Below, one piece after another: positions 55,716-62,610 of a DNA stretch of 64,000 nucleotides. Location of the stretch: NCBI GenBank assembly GCA_027459505.1, contig DAIDIE010000004.1, positions 43,726 to 107,725 of the forward strand. Direction: 5' to 3'. Both the position numbers and the translations under genes were made by a program. The notes beneath the pieces are model-generated. The model made no database searches and was not told the origin of the DNA. It worked only from the letters and a program-made list of their open reading frames with translations. Position 1 is the stretch's first letter; each line of letters opens with the position of its first letter. This stretch comes from Acidobacteriota bacterium. Lineage in GTDB: Bacteria; Acidobacteriota; Terriglobia; Terriglobales; SCQP01.

Positions 55716-58700
55716 ATGGGTTTCTCGGAAATCTTCATACGCCGTCCGGTGGCCACCTTTCTGCTGACCGCTGCCATCCTGATCGCCGGCTTCGCCTCCC
55801 TGCATCTGCTGCCCCTGGCGCCCCTGCCGCGGGTTGACTTCCCCACCATCACCGTCGGCGCGGGCCTGCCCGGCGCCAGTCCCGAGGTCATGGCCTCCTC
55901 CGTGGCCGCGCCCCTCGAACGCCAGTTCAGCCATATCGCCGGGGTCACCCAGATGACCTCCAGCAGCACCCTGGGCGCTACCTCCATCACCTTGCAATTT
56001 GACCTCAGCCGCGACATCAACGGCGCCGCCCGCGATGTGCAGGCTGCCATCAACGCCGCCCAAAGTCAGCTCCCCGCGGATATGCCCATGCATCCGCAAT
56101 ACCGCAAGGTCAACCCCGCCAATGCCCCCGCCGTCCTCCTGGTGCTGCACTCCAAAACCATTCCCCTGACCCAGGTCTATGACGAGGCCGACTCCATCCT
56201 GGCTCAGAAAATTGCCCAGGTCGCCGGCGTGGGCGAGGTCTTCGTCAGTGGCGCCGCCCAGCCCGCCGTCCGCGTTGACGTCAACCCCGCCGCGCTCGCC
56301 CATTACCAGCTCAGCCCCACCGATATCCGCGCCTTCCTCACCCAGCAAAACGTCAACATGCCCATCGGCATGCTCTGGGATGGACAGAACGCCTACACCC
56401 TCTCCAGCAACGATCAGCTCTACAAAGCCGCGCAATACCGCAACCTCGTCGTCGCCTACCGCAATGGCGCCCCCATCACCCTCAGCCAGGTGGCCGACGT
56501 GGAAGACAGCGTTCTCAATACCCGCATTGCCGGACTCGCCAATGGCCAGCCTTCGGTGATCATGTTTGTCATTCAGCAGCCCGGCGCCAATGTCGTCCAG
56601 ATGGTGGATAACATCAAGGCCCTGCTGCCCCAGTTCCAGTCCTCCATCTCGCCCGCCATCAAATTGGGCATCTGGGCCGACCGCTCCGTCACTATCCGCG
56701 CCTCCGTCCATGACGTCGAACTCACCTTGCTGGTCACCGTCATCCTGGTGATCCTGGTGATCTTCTTCTTCCTGCGCAGTCCCCGCGCCACCGCCATCCC
56801 CAGCATCGCCCTGCCCCTTTCCCTCGTCGGCACCTTCAGCGTCATGTACCTGATGGGCTACAGCCTGGATAATTTCTCGCTGATGGCCCTCACCATTGCC
56901 ACCGGTTTCGTCGTCGACGACGCCATTGTCGTCATTGAAAACATTGATCGCCATCTGGAAATGGGCGAGCCCCCCTTCCAGGCCGCCCTGCATGGCGCGC
57001 GGGAAATTGGTTTCACCGTCCTCTCCATGAGCCTCTCGCTGGTCGCCGTCTTCATTCCCCTGCTGCTCATGCAAGGCATCGTCGGCCGCCTCTTCCGCGA
57101 GTTCGCCGTTACCCTCAGCACCGCCATCGTCGTCTCCCTGGCCGTCTCGCTGACCACCACCCCCATGCTCTGCTCGCGCTTCCTGCGCATGCAGAAAAAT
57201 GTGCATGGCCGCCTCTACCGCTTCTGCGAACACATCTTTGACGCGACCCTGCGCGCCTATGAGCGCGCCCTGCGCTGGGTGCTGCGCTACAGCTTCATCA
57301 CCCTTCTGGTGACCCTCGCCACGGTCGTCCTCACCGCCTACCTATATGTCGAGATCCCCAAAGGCTTTTTCCCCCAGGAAGATACCGGCCGCATCATGGG
57401 CATGGTGAAGGCGCAGCAGGATATCTCCTTTGCCGCCATGGCGCAAAAGCAAAAGCAATTGGTCCACATCGTCATGAGCGACCCGGCGGTGGCCACCGTC
57501 GCTTCCTTCACCGGCAGCGGCACTGGATCCCCGACCAACACCGGACGCATGTTTATCCAGTTGAAAGACCAGCGCAAGGCCACCTCCGACCAGGTCATCG
57601 CCCGCTTGCGCCCCAAGCTGGCCCAGGTGGCCGGCGTGCGCCTGCTGATGCAGTCCGTGCAGGACATCAATATTGGTGGACGCCTCTCCGGCGCCCAGTA
57701 TCAATACACCCTCGAGGACAGCAACCTCACCGAACTCAATCATTGGGTCCCGCGCGTGGAGGCCGCCCTGCGCAAAATCCCTCTCCTGCGCGACGTCAAT
57801 TCCGATCAGCAGACCACCGGCTTAAAAGCCCAGCTCACCATTAACAAAGACACCGCCGCGCGCCTCGGCGTCTCCACCGCGGCCATCGATCAGACCCTTT
57901 ACGCCGCCTTTGGCCAGGCCCAGGTCTCCACCATCTACACCGAGCTGAACCAGTACCACGTGGTCATGGAGGTTCCCGCACAGTTTCAGCAAAACCCCGG
58001 CGACCTGGCCAATATCTACGTCCATTCCGCCAGCGGCGCCGCCGTTCCCCTGAGCGAACTCATCACCTATACGCCCGAAAATGCCGCCCTCTCCGTCAAC
58101 CATCAGGGCCAGTTCGCCGCCGTCACCATCTCCTTTAACCTCGCCCAGCGCGCCGCCTTAGGCGACGCGGTGAACGCAATCAACAAGGCGGAGGCCGCGC
58201 TCGGCCCTCCCGCCAGCTTGCATGCGGGGTTTCAGGGCACGGCGCAGCAATATCAGTCCTCCAACTCTAACGAGCTCTGGTTGATCGTCTTCGCCCTGAT
58301 CACCGTTTACATCGTCCTGGGCATTCTCTACGAGAGTTACATTCACCCGGTCACCATCCTCTCCACCCTGCCCTCCGCCGGCATTGGCGCGCTGTTGTTT
58401 CTCAAGTTGTTCGGCATGGAGCTGACGATTATCGCCCTGGTTGGCATTCTGCTGCTGATCGGGATTGTGAAAAAGAACGCGATCATGATGATCGACTTCG
58501 CCTTGCAGACCGAACGTGGCGAGGGCAAGTCGCCGGAGGAGTCCATTTATCACGCCGCCGTGATGCGCTTCCGCCCGATCATGATGACCACCATGGCGGC
58601 ATTTTTCGGCGCCTTGCCGCTGGCAGTGGGAACTGGCGCCGGCGCTGAACTGCGCCGCCCGCTGGGCGTCAGCATCATGGGCGGCCTGGTCGTCTCCCAG

Positions 58701-58832
58701 ATGCTCACCCTCTTCACCACCCCCGTCGTCTACCTCTACATGGACCGCCTGCGCCTCTGGGTCAGCCACCTCGGCGTGCAACAAGCCGCCGCCCGCATCC
58801 TCCGCCTCCCCTCCCGCCCCACCGCCTCGTAA
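55716..58832 (+). CDS. RND multidrug efflux permease (MdtC-like)
   Basis: FIRRPVATFLLTAAILIAGFASLHLLPLAPLPRVDFPTITV; conserved TM4 DD (VVDDAIVVIENIDRHLE). Confidence 0.95.
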   Translation: MGFSEIFIRRPVATFLLTAAILIAGFASLHLLPLAPLPRVDFPTITVGAGLPGASPEVMASSVAAPLERQFSHIAGVTQMTSSSTLGATSITLQFDLSRDINGAARDVQAAINAAQSQLPADMPMHPQYRKVNPANAPAVLLVLHSKTIPLTQVYDEADSILAQKIAQVAGVGEVFVSGAAQPAVRVDVNPAALAHYQLSPTDIRAFLTQQNVNMPIGMLWDGQNAYTLSSNDQLYKAAQYRNLVVAYRNGAPITLSQVADVEDSVLNTRIAGLANGQPSVIMFVIQQPGANVVQMVDNIKALLPQFQSSISPAIKLGIWADRSVTIRASVHDVELTLLVTVILVILVIFFFLRSPRATAIPSIALPLSLVGTFSVMYLMGYSLDNFSLMALTIATGFVVDDAIVVIENIDRHLEMGEPPFQAALHGAREIGFTVLSMSLSLVAVFIPLLLMQGIVGRLFREFAVTLSTAIVVSLAVSLTTTPMLCSRFLRMQKNVHGRLYRFCEHIFDATLRAYERALRWVLRYSFITLLVTLATVVLTAYLYVEIPKGFFPQEDTGRIMGMVKAQQDISFAAMAQKQKQLVHIVMSDPAVATVASFTGSGTGSPTNTGRMFIQLKDQRKATSDQVIARLRPKLAQVAGVRLLMQSVQDINIGGRLSGAQYQYTLEDSNLTELNHWVPRVEAALRKIPLLRDVNSDQQTTGLKAQLTINKDTAARLGVSTAAIDQTLYAAFGQAQVSTIYTELNQYHVVMEVPAQFQQNPGDLANIYVHSASGAAVPLSELITYTPENAALSVNHQGQFAAVTISFNLAQRAALGDAVNAINKAEAALGPPASLHAGFQGTAQQYQSSNSNELWLIVFALITVYIVLGILYESYIHPVTILSTLPSAGIGALLFLKLFGMELTIIALVGILLLIGIVKKNAIMMIDFALQTERGEGKSPEESIYHAAVMRFRPIMMTTMAAFFGALPLAVGTGAGAELRRPLGVSIMGGLVVSQMLTLFTTPVVYLYMDRLRLWVSHLGVQQAAARILRLPSRPTAS

Positions 58833-58920
58833 GACACGAACCCCAACACTCCTGCCGCATTGCCGGCAGCTCAGCACATGCGGTAGCCATCCCCGCAGAA
58901 CCGCTCTCTGGATCTCTCTG

Positions 58921-61005
58921 GATCGGCCCCTCCCAGCCATCCCGCGTCAGCGGGATAGCAGCAACCCTAGCCCGGCATAGCGGGCGCTTCGCCCGCGTAT
59001 GCCGGGTCAAGCCAACAAAGCAGATTCCGCACCGGGGCGCAGGCCCCGATGCGAGCAAGGCCTGCGCTCACCACGCAAGCAACGCCGAAGGCTACGCCGC
59101 CCATATTCGCCAAACGCGTTCAACGTTTGGGCGTCCAAGCCAACTGGAACACCACAAATCGCCGCCCCGAAAAACACCAGGGTGCCCCAGCTCAACGTTT
59201 TTGTTGACTGGGCGCCGCAGGCGCCGGTGCAACCGTCCGTGTTGAGCCCCAACCGCCTGAACAATGCATGCAACCCCCGCGTAGCGGAGCGATGCCCGGA
59301 AACTAGCCACGGTGAACTCCCTGGATCGGCCCCTCCGAGCCATCCCGCGTCAGCGGGATAGCAGCAACCCTAGCCCGGCATAGCGGGCGCTTCGCCCGCC
59401 TATGCCGGGTCAAGCCAACGAAGCAGATTCCGCATCGGGGCGCAGGCCCCGATGCGAGCAAACCCTGCGCTCACCACGCAAGCAACGCCGAAGGCTACGC
59501 CGCCCATATTCGCCACCCGCGTTCAACGAGTGGGCGCCCAAACCAACTGGAACACCAAAAATCGCCGCCCCTGAAAAACATCAGGGTGCCCCAGCTCAAC
59601 GTTTTTTGTTGAGTGGGCGCCGCACGCGCCGGTGCAACCGTCCGGGTCGCACCCCAACCGCCTGAACAATGCATGCAACCCCCGCGCAGCGGAGCGATGC
59701 CCGGAAACTAGCCACGCTGAACCCCCTGGATCGGCCCTTCCGAGCCATCCCGCGTCAGCGGGATGGCAGCAACCCTAGCCCGGCATAGCGGGCGCTTCGC
59801 CCGCGTATGCCGGGTCAAGCCAACCAAGCAGATTCCGCATCGGGGCGCAGGCCCCGATGCGAGCAAACCCTGCGCTCACCACGCGGGCAATGCCGATGGC
59901 CACGCCGCCCACATTGGCCAAACGCGTTCAACGTTTGGGCGTCCAAGCCAACTGGAACACCAGAAATCGCCGCCCCTGAAAAACACCAGGGTGCCCCAGC
60001 TCAACGTTTTTGTTGAGTGGGCGTCGCACGCGCCGGTGCAACCGTCCGGGTTGGGCCCCAACCGCCTGAACAATGCATGCAACCCCCGCGCAGCGAAGCG
60101 ATGCCCGGAAACTAACCATGGTGAACTCTTTGGATCGGCCCCTCCGAGCCATCCCGCGTCAGCGGGATGGCAGCAACCCTAGCCCGGCATAGCGGGCGCT
60201 TCGCCCGCGTATGCCGGGTCAAGCCAACGCAGCAGATTCCGCATCGGGGCACAGGCCCCGATGCGAGCAAGGCCTGCGCTCACCACGCGAGCAACGCCGA
60301 AGGCTACGCGCCGCCCATATTCGCCAAACGCGTTCAACGTGTGGGCGTCCAAGCCAACTAGAACACCACAAATCGCCGCCCCTGAAAAACACCAGGGTGC
60401 CCCAGCTCAACGTTTTTTGTTGAGTGGGCGCCGCACGCGCCGGTGCAACCATCCGGGTCGGGCCCCCACCGCCTGAACAACGCATGCAACCCCCGCGCAG
60501 CGAAGCGATGCCCGGAAACTAACCATGGTGAACTCTTTGGATCGGCCCCTCCGAGCCATCCCGCATCAGCGGGATGGCAGCAACCCTAGCCCGGCATAGC
60601 GGGCGCTTCGCCCGCGTATGCCGGGTCAAGCCAACGAAGCAGATTCCGCATCGGGGCGCAGGCCCCGATGCGAGCAAACCCTGCGCTCACCACGCGCGCA
60701 ACGCCGAAGGCTACGCGCCGCCCATATTCGCCAAACGCGTTCAACGTGTGGGCCTCCAAGCCAACTGGAACACCGAAAATCGCCACCAGGGTGCCCCATC
60801 TCAACGTTTTTTGTTGAGTGGGCGCCGCACGCGCCGGTGCAACCTTCCGGGTTGGGCCCCAACCGCCTGAACAATCCATGCAACCCCCGCGTAGCGAAGC
60901 GATGCCCCGAAACTAGCCACGGGGAACTCCCTGGATCGGCCCCTCCGAGCCATCCCGCGTCAGCGGGATGACAGCAACCCTAGCCCGGCATAGCGGGCGC
61001 TTCGC
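58921..61005. repeat. Tandem array of ~400 bp imperfect units (5 full + 1 partial) rich in palindromes
   Basis: GATCGGCCC(C/T)TCC(C/G)AGCCATCCCGC anchors at 58921, 59334, 59729, 60133, 60540, 60934 (spacings 413, 395, 404, 407, 394); each unit carries CCCGGCATAGCGGGCG..CGCCCGC.TATGCCGGG and GCATCGGGGC-GCAG-GCCCCGATGC-type stems. Confidence 0.95.
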
Positions 61006-61190
61006 GCTCATTGCCATGCTGCTGCTCCGCTTCCTGCAGCTCAAGGCCAAGTTCGGCTGGGCCACTTCCAACCCGCTGGCGCTGCTGCACCAACAACTGT
61101 TCGTTTACCGTTGACCTGTGGGCCTGGATCGACGATCCGTTCCAGCCTCCGCCGCTGCCGCCGCATGTGCAATTGGCGCTCCCGCTCTAA
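61006..61190 (+). pseudogene. C-terminal remnant of a transposase (IS4/IS1182-like style), frameshifted
   Basis: ALIAMLLLRFLQLKAKFGWATSNPLALLHQQLFVYR / +1 shift / DLWAWIDDPFQPPPLPPHVQLALPL*; starts exactly where the sixth repeat copy stops. Confidence 0.65.
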
Positions 61191-61437
61191 CTCGGACAGC
61201 ACAACCGCCCGTTCTGCCCCCAAACCCAGGAGACTCCGCCCATCCTCAACCCTAACCCTAACTGGGGCAGCAGAATCGCTCCCAGCACAACCAGAAGCCG
61301 GCTCGGCGCCCCCAACCTGAACGCGCGCGGGCGTCTACGCCCCCGCCTTCCCCAACGTTTTCACTACCGGTCCAACCCGATTCGCGTTAATTTGGACGGC
61401 AGTGATCATAGATGGCTCAGTTCGTTCCGCTCCCCCA

Positions 61438-62610
61438 ATGAAATCGCGCCTTGTAGCAATCGGCGTTACCCAGGGAGACGCGTTCTTCCTAGAACGGCGC
61501 GATGGCTTCACCGCTCTGATTGACGGCGGCAGGTCCGCCAGCGGATTCCCCGCGGAATTCCAAAGAGCTACGCAGCGTGACAGTGTGGACGTAATCGTCT
61601 GCACCCACAACGACGCCGACCATGCAAACGGGATCATTGGGTTCCTTCAGTCTGGTCTCCGGTGCAAGGAAGTATGGCTGCCTGCCTCTTGGACAGACCG
61701 GTTGCGCGACCTCTTCCGGCCCGAGCAGTTCACCCGCGAACTGGTTGACAACGTGATGGATCTTGGCGAACCGGAAGCCTCGAACATACGGGAAACGGAT
61801 ACCCTGCTTGAGCGCCTGGCGGACGGCTACCAGATGCGCGACCAGGCTCGAAATCAAAGAGAGACACTGGATGCCGAGAGCTTAGTAGAAGGGACTCTTG
61901 AAGAAAGCAGCGACGACCAGATTGGGCTTTCCCATTATCCGCTGTTTTGTTGGCATCCAGACTGGCCGTTCTTCTGGCGCAAATTCTGGGTGCACGACCC
62001 ACGGTTCCGATTGTTCGTAGAGGCGGTTGCAGCCGGAGATCGAATCCGCCAGATCACGCGCTTGGCGTTTCATCGCGGGTGTCGGATTCGGTGGTTCGAG
62101 TTTTCATCAGAAGCGGAGGGCGGGTTTCCGGCAACTCTCGTCCCGGTTAACGCTCGGGAAATGCAAAAAGTCAGCGTGAACAACTCAACCGCTTTGATGT
62201 ACCTGGCTCTTACCATCACAAATCGCCAGTCGCTCGTCTTTTGCGCGCCGCGGGAGAGGACCGCTCCGGCAATTTTGTTCACGGCTGATTCTGACCTGTC
62301 ATTTCCCAACGTCGTGCCCTGGAGTGAGGGCATGCTCGTCAGTGCTCCGCATCACGGTTCGGAAGCGAATGCGGCAGCCTATAAGCGGTTCCGCAGCGAA
62401 ATGCCGATTCCAACATCGACTGTTTGGTTAAGAAGCGATGGGAGATTCCGGTCGAGGCCAGGCTCCTCATTCCTGGGCCTTCGGGTGTCGAATGTTCCAG
62501 TCTTCTGTACGCTCTGCCGCCGTGCTTCGCAGCCGAAGCAAGACTTGCTTTTTGCGATGAGCCTGCGCCGCTGGCGTCCGGTGAACACGCGGGCATGTCT
62601 GTGCAAGTGA
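61438..62610 (+). CDS. ComEC/Rec2-like metallo-beta-lactamase-fold hydrolase (soluble)
   Basis: CTHNDADHANGI (HxDADH) and LVSAPHHGSEANAA motifs; C-terminal CTLCR...CLCK cysteine pairs. Confidence 0.8.
   Translation: MKSRLVAIGVTQGDAFFLERRDGFTALIDGGRSASGFPAEFQRATQRDSVDVIVCTHNDADHANGIIGFLQSGLRCKEVWLPASWTDRLRDLFRPEQFTRELVDNVMDLGEPEASNIRETDTLLERLADGYQMRDQARNQRETLDAESLVEGTLEESSDDQIGLSHYPLFCWHPDWPFFWRKFWVHDPRFRLFVEAVAAGDRIRQITRLAFHRGCRIRWFEFSSEAEGGFPATLVPVNAREMQKVSVNNSTALMYLALTITNRQSLVFCAPRERTAPAILFTADSDLSFPNVVPWSEGMLVSAPHHGSEANAAAYKRFRSEMPIPTSTVWLRSDGRFRSRPGSSFLGLRVSNVPVFCTLCRRASQPKQDLLFAMSLRRWRPVNTRACLCK

Follow-up and report, generated by a model that had tools for sequence, protein, structure and literature searches.

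The question raised by this locus is whether a tandem array of multi-hairpin units, located in the 64,000-nucleotide stretch of DNA that was analysed as a whole (the window), represents a structured RNA of a new family, as originally predicted, or a repeat of another kind. The array is interpreted here, with a probability of roughly 0.87, as a BIME/REP-type composite that was dispersed by Y1 transposase activity and then amplified in tandem by recombination. TRF placed the array at 58914-61005 (period 405, 5.2 copies, 93% matches, score 3539), and alignment of units whose starts were anchored on GGATCGGCCC delimited 58920-61005 (+), i.e., about 2.1 kb with five full units (pairwise identity 92.6-95.0%) and a 73-nt partial sixth:

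58920-59322 (+): unit 1, 403 bp
59323-59727 (+): unit 2, 405 bp
59728-60131 (+): unit 3, 404 bp
60132-60538 (+): unit 4, 407 bp
60539-60932 (+): unit 5, 394 bp
60933-61005 (+): partial unit 6, 73 nt

The predicted array of five units and a partial sixth is hence real according to both TRF and alignment, and the last three of the predicted spacings (413/395/404/407/394) were reproduced, whereas the first two are 403/405 (a small counting error). The private changes ascribed to units 4 and 5 and the 3′ end ascribed to units 3 and 4 were both seen in the alignment. Since the unit lengths are not multiples of three and no gene was predicted from 58832 to 61402 by a GC-phase caller (i.e., the array is wholly intergenic), a repeated protein was rejected; the proposed non-coding multi-hairpin array, spread via duplication, was supported.

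All five inverted repeats reported per unit are present as quoted, and a sixth, decayed hairpin (CTAGCCA..CCCTGG), overlooked previously, was found in the unit. Hairpins 1-3 are henceforth called module A. The elements of the array are located as follows:

58930-59063 (+): module A of unit 1 (model R1)
59333-59466, 59738-59871, 60142-60275, 60549-60682, and a partial copy from 60943: further array copies of module A (model R1)
59744-59767 (+): hairpin 1 of unit 3, GCCATCCCGC/GCGGGATGGC
59775-59814 (+): hairpin 2 of unit 3 with a CTAG foot, CTAG-CCCGGCATA...TATGCCGGG
59836-59861 (+): hairpin 3 of unit 3, CGCATCGGGGC/GCCCCGATGCG
59916-59941 (+): hairpin 4 of unit 3; the others are at 59108-59133, 59511-59536, 60322-60347, and 60729-60754
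59989-60028 (+): REP5 hairpin of unit 3, CTCAACG-TTTT-GTTGAG (model R2)
59180-59219, 59584-59624, 60395-60435, 60789-60829: other array copies of REP5 (model R2)
59273-59331, 59678-59736, 60883-60941 (+): decayed GTAG-type element at the unit end (model R3); in units 3 and 4 it lies at the same place, by alignment

The array copies of the GTAG element are decayed and carry CTAG. Classical BIMEs alternate in palindrome orientation, whereas all palindromes and feet of the array are on the same side.

Folding of the unit was compared to shuffled sequences and yielded z-scores of -5.55 for DNA, -5.54 for plus-strand RNA, and -4.82 for minus-strand RNA. Stem positions varied less than the remaining positions among the five units (7/105 vs 58/299, Fisher p = 0.0018). 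The fourth stem had been put forward as evidence for selection on pairing; its change in unit 2 is as described (one compensated pair and one C-A mismatch), but hairpin 4 carries an A-G mismatch in units 4 and 5, and the stem is thus neutral evidence inside the array. That pairing is maintained via compensatory change was nevertheless supported, clearly so only when dispersed copies were compared. Hairpin 1 showed one compensatory pair (C-G to G-C) between the array and the copies on contigs C37 and C43, and hairpin 2 one pair changed on both arms (C-G to G-C, array vs dispersed copies), with a home-made covariation score on its upper stem being weak and left out of the argument. REP5, a short imperfect palindrome with pairing conserved in 97% of the cells of an alignment fitted to the model, had 6 compensated cells in 3 pairs (including T-A to C-G), and the GTAG element had 30 compensated cells in 8 pairs, both above shuffles and slid controls; these REP5 and GTAG counts lean upwards, as the alignments were fitted to the model, one of them (A6) includes some matches tallied once per strand, and changes are shared among related copies. 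The compensatory changes are evidence that pairing matters across the lifetime of these repeat families. Compensated pairs are equally predicted by DNA hairpins of transposable repeats and by RNA hairpins.

The unit, and covariance models derived from dispersed copies, were then compared to the genome of origin (a 45-contig assembly of 4.06 Mb), with each model search scoring up to 150 candidates such that copies may be missed. Pieces of the unit were found elsewhere, and the whole unit only at the array. The model of module A matched 29 places at E<0.05, a number that counts the six array copies as well as matches to parts of the module. Full-length copies outside the array were present at five places, i.e., three on C37 and two on C43, in both cases unaccompanied by REP5; each of the C37 copies (L010:3700-7700) is joined to a similar gene fragment of Rhs/YD-repeat type, as judged by eye. 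Within module A, its central hairpin, hairpin 2, is dispersed most widely; it was found at ~15 further places and recurs with its CTAG foot on C2, C9, C10, C14, C19, C20, C22, and C43. Hairpin 3 is unaccompanied by hairpins 1 and 2 at C1:237831 and by hairpin 1 on C21, while no convincing dispersed copy of hairpin 4 was observed in the genome stretches that were read. REP5 was located at about 40 places, of which five belong to the array and ~30-35 lie outside it, and the GTAG element, which is GTAG-footed and has two hairpins, at ~25 (model R3). The part from REP5 to the unit end, comprising REP5 and the GTAG element, stands alone at C1:1491-1636 without module A. Matches were mostly located outside predicted genes: according to a simple GC-phase gene caller, 5 of 34 REP5 matches and 2 of 20 matches of the GTAG element were inside predicted genes, compared to a coding fraction of 74%.

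REP families typically comprise >100 copies, and about 20-35 per family were found here. REP5 accordingly has the many dispersed intergenic copies of a REP, albeit below the typical number, and is classed as REP-like rather than as a canonical GTAG REP based on its foot, which is GGTGCCC/GATGCCC and not GT[AG]G. A GTAG foot, dispersal, and compensated stems, i.e., the features of GTAG REPs, were present at about 20 places in the forms AGTAG-CCAGCG..CGCTGG and AGTAG-CCAGGGA..TCCCTGG; GTAG is the classical REP foot (PMC3733652, PMC6006769).

Many clusters combine two or three families in varying order, and some of these composites are tandem repeats themselves. The GTAG element and module A form a 324-bp tandem repeat running off the end of C43 (L009:1-445), a 453-bp composite on C9 (L084:6143-6991, 1.9 copies, 96% matches) holds REP5, hairpin 2, and a CCCCGTCCCGCC...GGCGGGACGGGG hairpin, and a 161-bp repeat with REP5 is present in 3.3 copies on C13 (L095:4307-4839). 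The composites on C9 and C13 resemble that of the array in kind but differ from it in sequence. REP clusters accumulate near contig ends: 22 of 36 lie no more than 8 kb from one, a zone representing 18% of the genome (contigs C1, C2, C9, C10, C13, C18, C34, C37, C40, C42, C43, and C45). The assembly therefore breaks at these clusters, and the copy numbers obtained are probably too low.

Two Y1 transposase genes were identified in the genome, on C42 and C40. The C42 protein reached 76.7 bits against the NCBIfam model NF047646 (REP_Tyr_transpos), just under the cut-off of 80; it keeps the HFH motif and a catalytic-type Tyr (YMHRYP region), while its first part is out of frame, leaving the N terminus broken. 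This RAYT gene (123703-123957) is flanked by inverted copies of REP5, at 123447 (+) upstream and at 124119 (-) and 124252 (-) downstream, which matches the REP-rayt-REP arrangement described in PMC2817692. The C40 gene is of IS200/IS605 type, matches IS200 and not RAYT, and is cut by the contig end; a GTAG element is located ~50 bp from its stop codon, and its other side is off the contig. Module A was not seen adjoining either of the two Y1 genes, and hairpins 1, 3, and 4 were without a RAYT link. With hairpins occurring singly or in varying combinations throughout the genome and REP5 flanking a RAYT gene, the claim of a new structured RNA of no known family was not supported. The original prediction had itself named copies of a REP-type family as the outcome that would speak against it, and the findings come close to this, except that pairing is conserved and that the REP families themselves look undescribed.

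The proposed covariance-model comparison with Rfam and relatives returned neither an Rfam family for the unit at gathering score nor a relative with the whole unit, which was absent from the 60 relatives searched, bar one 29-base match taken as chance. No match was obtained with the REP5 model in 40 relatives or with the module A model in 119 others of the order, and the GTAG model gave three weak matches in two relatives. Scanning of GTDB contigs yielded the exact REP5 core on 0 contigs, and phages and plasmids had no match to the unit. The hairpin 2 core on two GTDB contigs, whose flanks look unrelated, and three sub-threshold minus-strand matches to Rfam sR40 were set aside as chance. Y1 genes were present in 31 of 40 relatives and REP5 in none, so the count of Y1 genes is no predictor of these repeats. 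Because no other genome of the same genus was among the relatives listed, their distribution can be described at most as lineage-private.

For the REP-type composite, the following sequence of events is proposed. Several families of short DNA hairpins, specific to the species and footed by CTAG/GTAG or GGTGCC, would have spread through intergenic DNA, most likely by means of a RAYT/IS200-type (Y1) transposase acting on single-stranded hairpins, and composites would have been assembled from neighbouring insertions. One composite of ~404 bp may then have been amplified head to tail, via unequal recombination or slippage, with some homogenisation between units, as suggested by the changes shared by units 3/4 and 4/5. 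An IS4-type element would later have removed the 3′ end of the array. Weighing against this account are the broken frame and sub-threshold score of the only RAYT gene found, the truncation of the C40 gene and its match to IS200, the foot of REP5, the low copy numbers, the failure to link hairpins 1, 3, and 4 to a RAYT, the uniform orientation of the palindromes, and the fragmentation of the assembly into 45 contigs. The upstream neighbour is a transporter gene:

55716-58832 (+): second of two adjacent large transporter genes (ORF list)

These genes, of RND efflux type by eye, are read towards the array and end 88 nt before it. By analogy with REPs in the literature, any present role of the array is probably the general one, i.e., 3′-end stabilisation or termination of transcripts behind the transporter operon, or gyrase binding. 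Recruitment of the 404-bp composite as a single functional element of several hairpins, with selection on its copy number, is improbable; such an element could, e.g., buffer supercoiling as an array or, behind the transporter operon, act as a decoy RNA or long 3′ stabiliser.

Fold energies far below those of shuffles on both strands and covarying pairs would also be accounted for if the 404-nt unit were itself the functional entity, namely a structured non-coding RNA (or a long leader or decoy with multiple hairpins) arrayed in tandem. This is considered very unlikely, as the hairpins are shuffled between loci with the whole unit existing only at the array, no Rfam family reaches its cut-off, a promoter-like site was not found and terminator-like sites were not in excess, and folding is equally good on the two strands, which must hold for any set of palindromes.

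At its 3′ border, the array adjoins a transposable element:

61003-61405 (+): 3′ part of an IS4-type IS remnant, cutting the sixth unit

The 403 bp following the sixth unit match, at 97% identity, the 3′ part of a C8 element of IS4 type whose transposase frame is open (DDE_Tnp_1, DUF4372). As the sixth unit stops at 61003-61005 with IS4-type sequence next to it, the array was probably longer once and was trimmed by an IS-linked deletion. Directly after the remnant follows a metallo-beta-lactamase-fold gene (61402-62610, PF00753), whose listed start overlaps the remnant's end. The contact with the remnant, together with the open frame of the C8 copy, could also be taken to indicate that the repeated unit is a MITE or non-autonomous transposon moved by a classical DDE transposase. 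We give this little credence, given that the IS4-type element breaks a unit mid-way instead of framing it, that its ends (CCGTCCAAATTA) were not found at unit ends by eye, and that the dispersed copies begin and end at hairpin borders with no common terminal repeats visible by eye. Selection for copy number in an array of sites that serve protein binding or replication/segregation (gyrase-, IHF-, or partition-type), for which BIME-2 arrays binding gyrase in E. coli are a precedent (PMC2817692) and which is compatible with the REP reading rather than exclusive of it, is scarcely credible on its own, since the locus is not conserved in the relatives searched.

The REP-type composite has its closest counterparts in Pseudomonas fluorescens SBW25, where direct-orientation tandem arrays of GI-GIII REPs, and also REPINs repeated in tandem together with their flanks, have been described (PMC3116915). 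Shared with these are the direct-orientation tandem arrangement of REPs of different families at fixed spacing in intergenic DNA and the presence of dispersed copies and RAYT genes in the same genome. In contrast to the SBW25 module of 184 bp and two families, the unit here has 404 bp and at least four palindrome types in a 2.1-kb array, the sequence families are unrelated, copies are fewer, and the RAYT has decayed. Like BIME-2 and hybrid BIMEs of E. coli and Stenotrophomonas (PMC2817692), the unit is a REP composite, a hybrid of families, and a repeated module with compensated stems, but it lacks alternating orientation within the unit. Within the same phylum, an association of hairpins or inverted repeats with Y1 transposases is known for acidobacterial TnpA-Y1 class 3, which has a CnGA foot and numbers about 600 copies in Solibacter (PMC6006769), and for the TIRYT repeats in Koribacter (PMC3733652); based on the descriptions, the present families are set apart by their GTAG/CTAG and GGTGCC feet instead of CnGA and by a C42 protein that matches the RAYT model.

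The array is an ordinary one, albeit of some interest in that it is large, draws on several REP families, and comes from an acidobacterium. It extends multi-family tandem REP arrays to another phylum, in a lineage with several private REP-type families joined in composites that were tandemly amplified repeatedly (with units of 404 bp here and of 453, 324, and 161 bp on C9, C43, and C13, respectively), and provides a setting in which the conversion of Y1-transposase repeats into long arrays can be addressed. For genome scans, it serves as a warning that covarying multi-hairpin tandem arrays can be REP mosaics and not RNAs. Heptamer microsatellites of the GTTGTCA/GACAACT type were additionally observed to be common beside REP clusters (L009:6487-6584, L094:7257-7326, L025:1095-1240).
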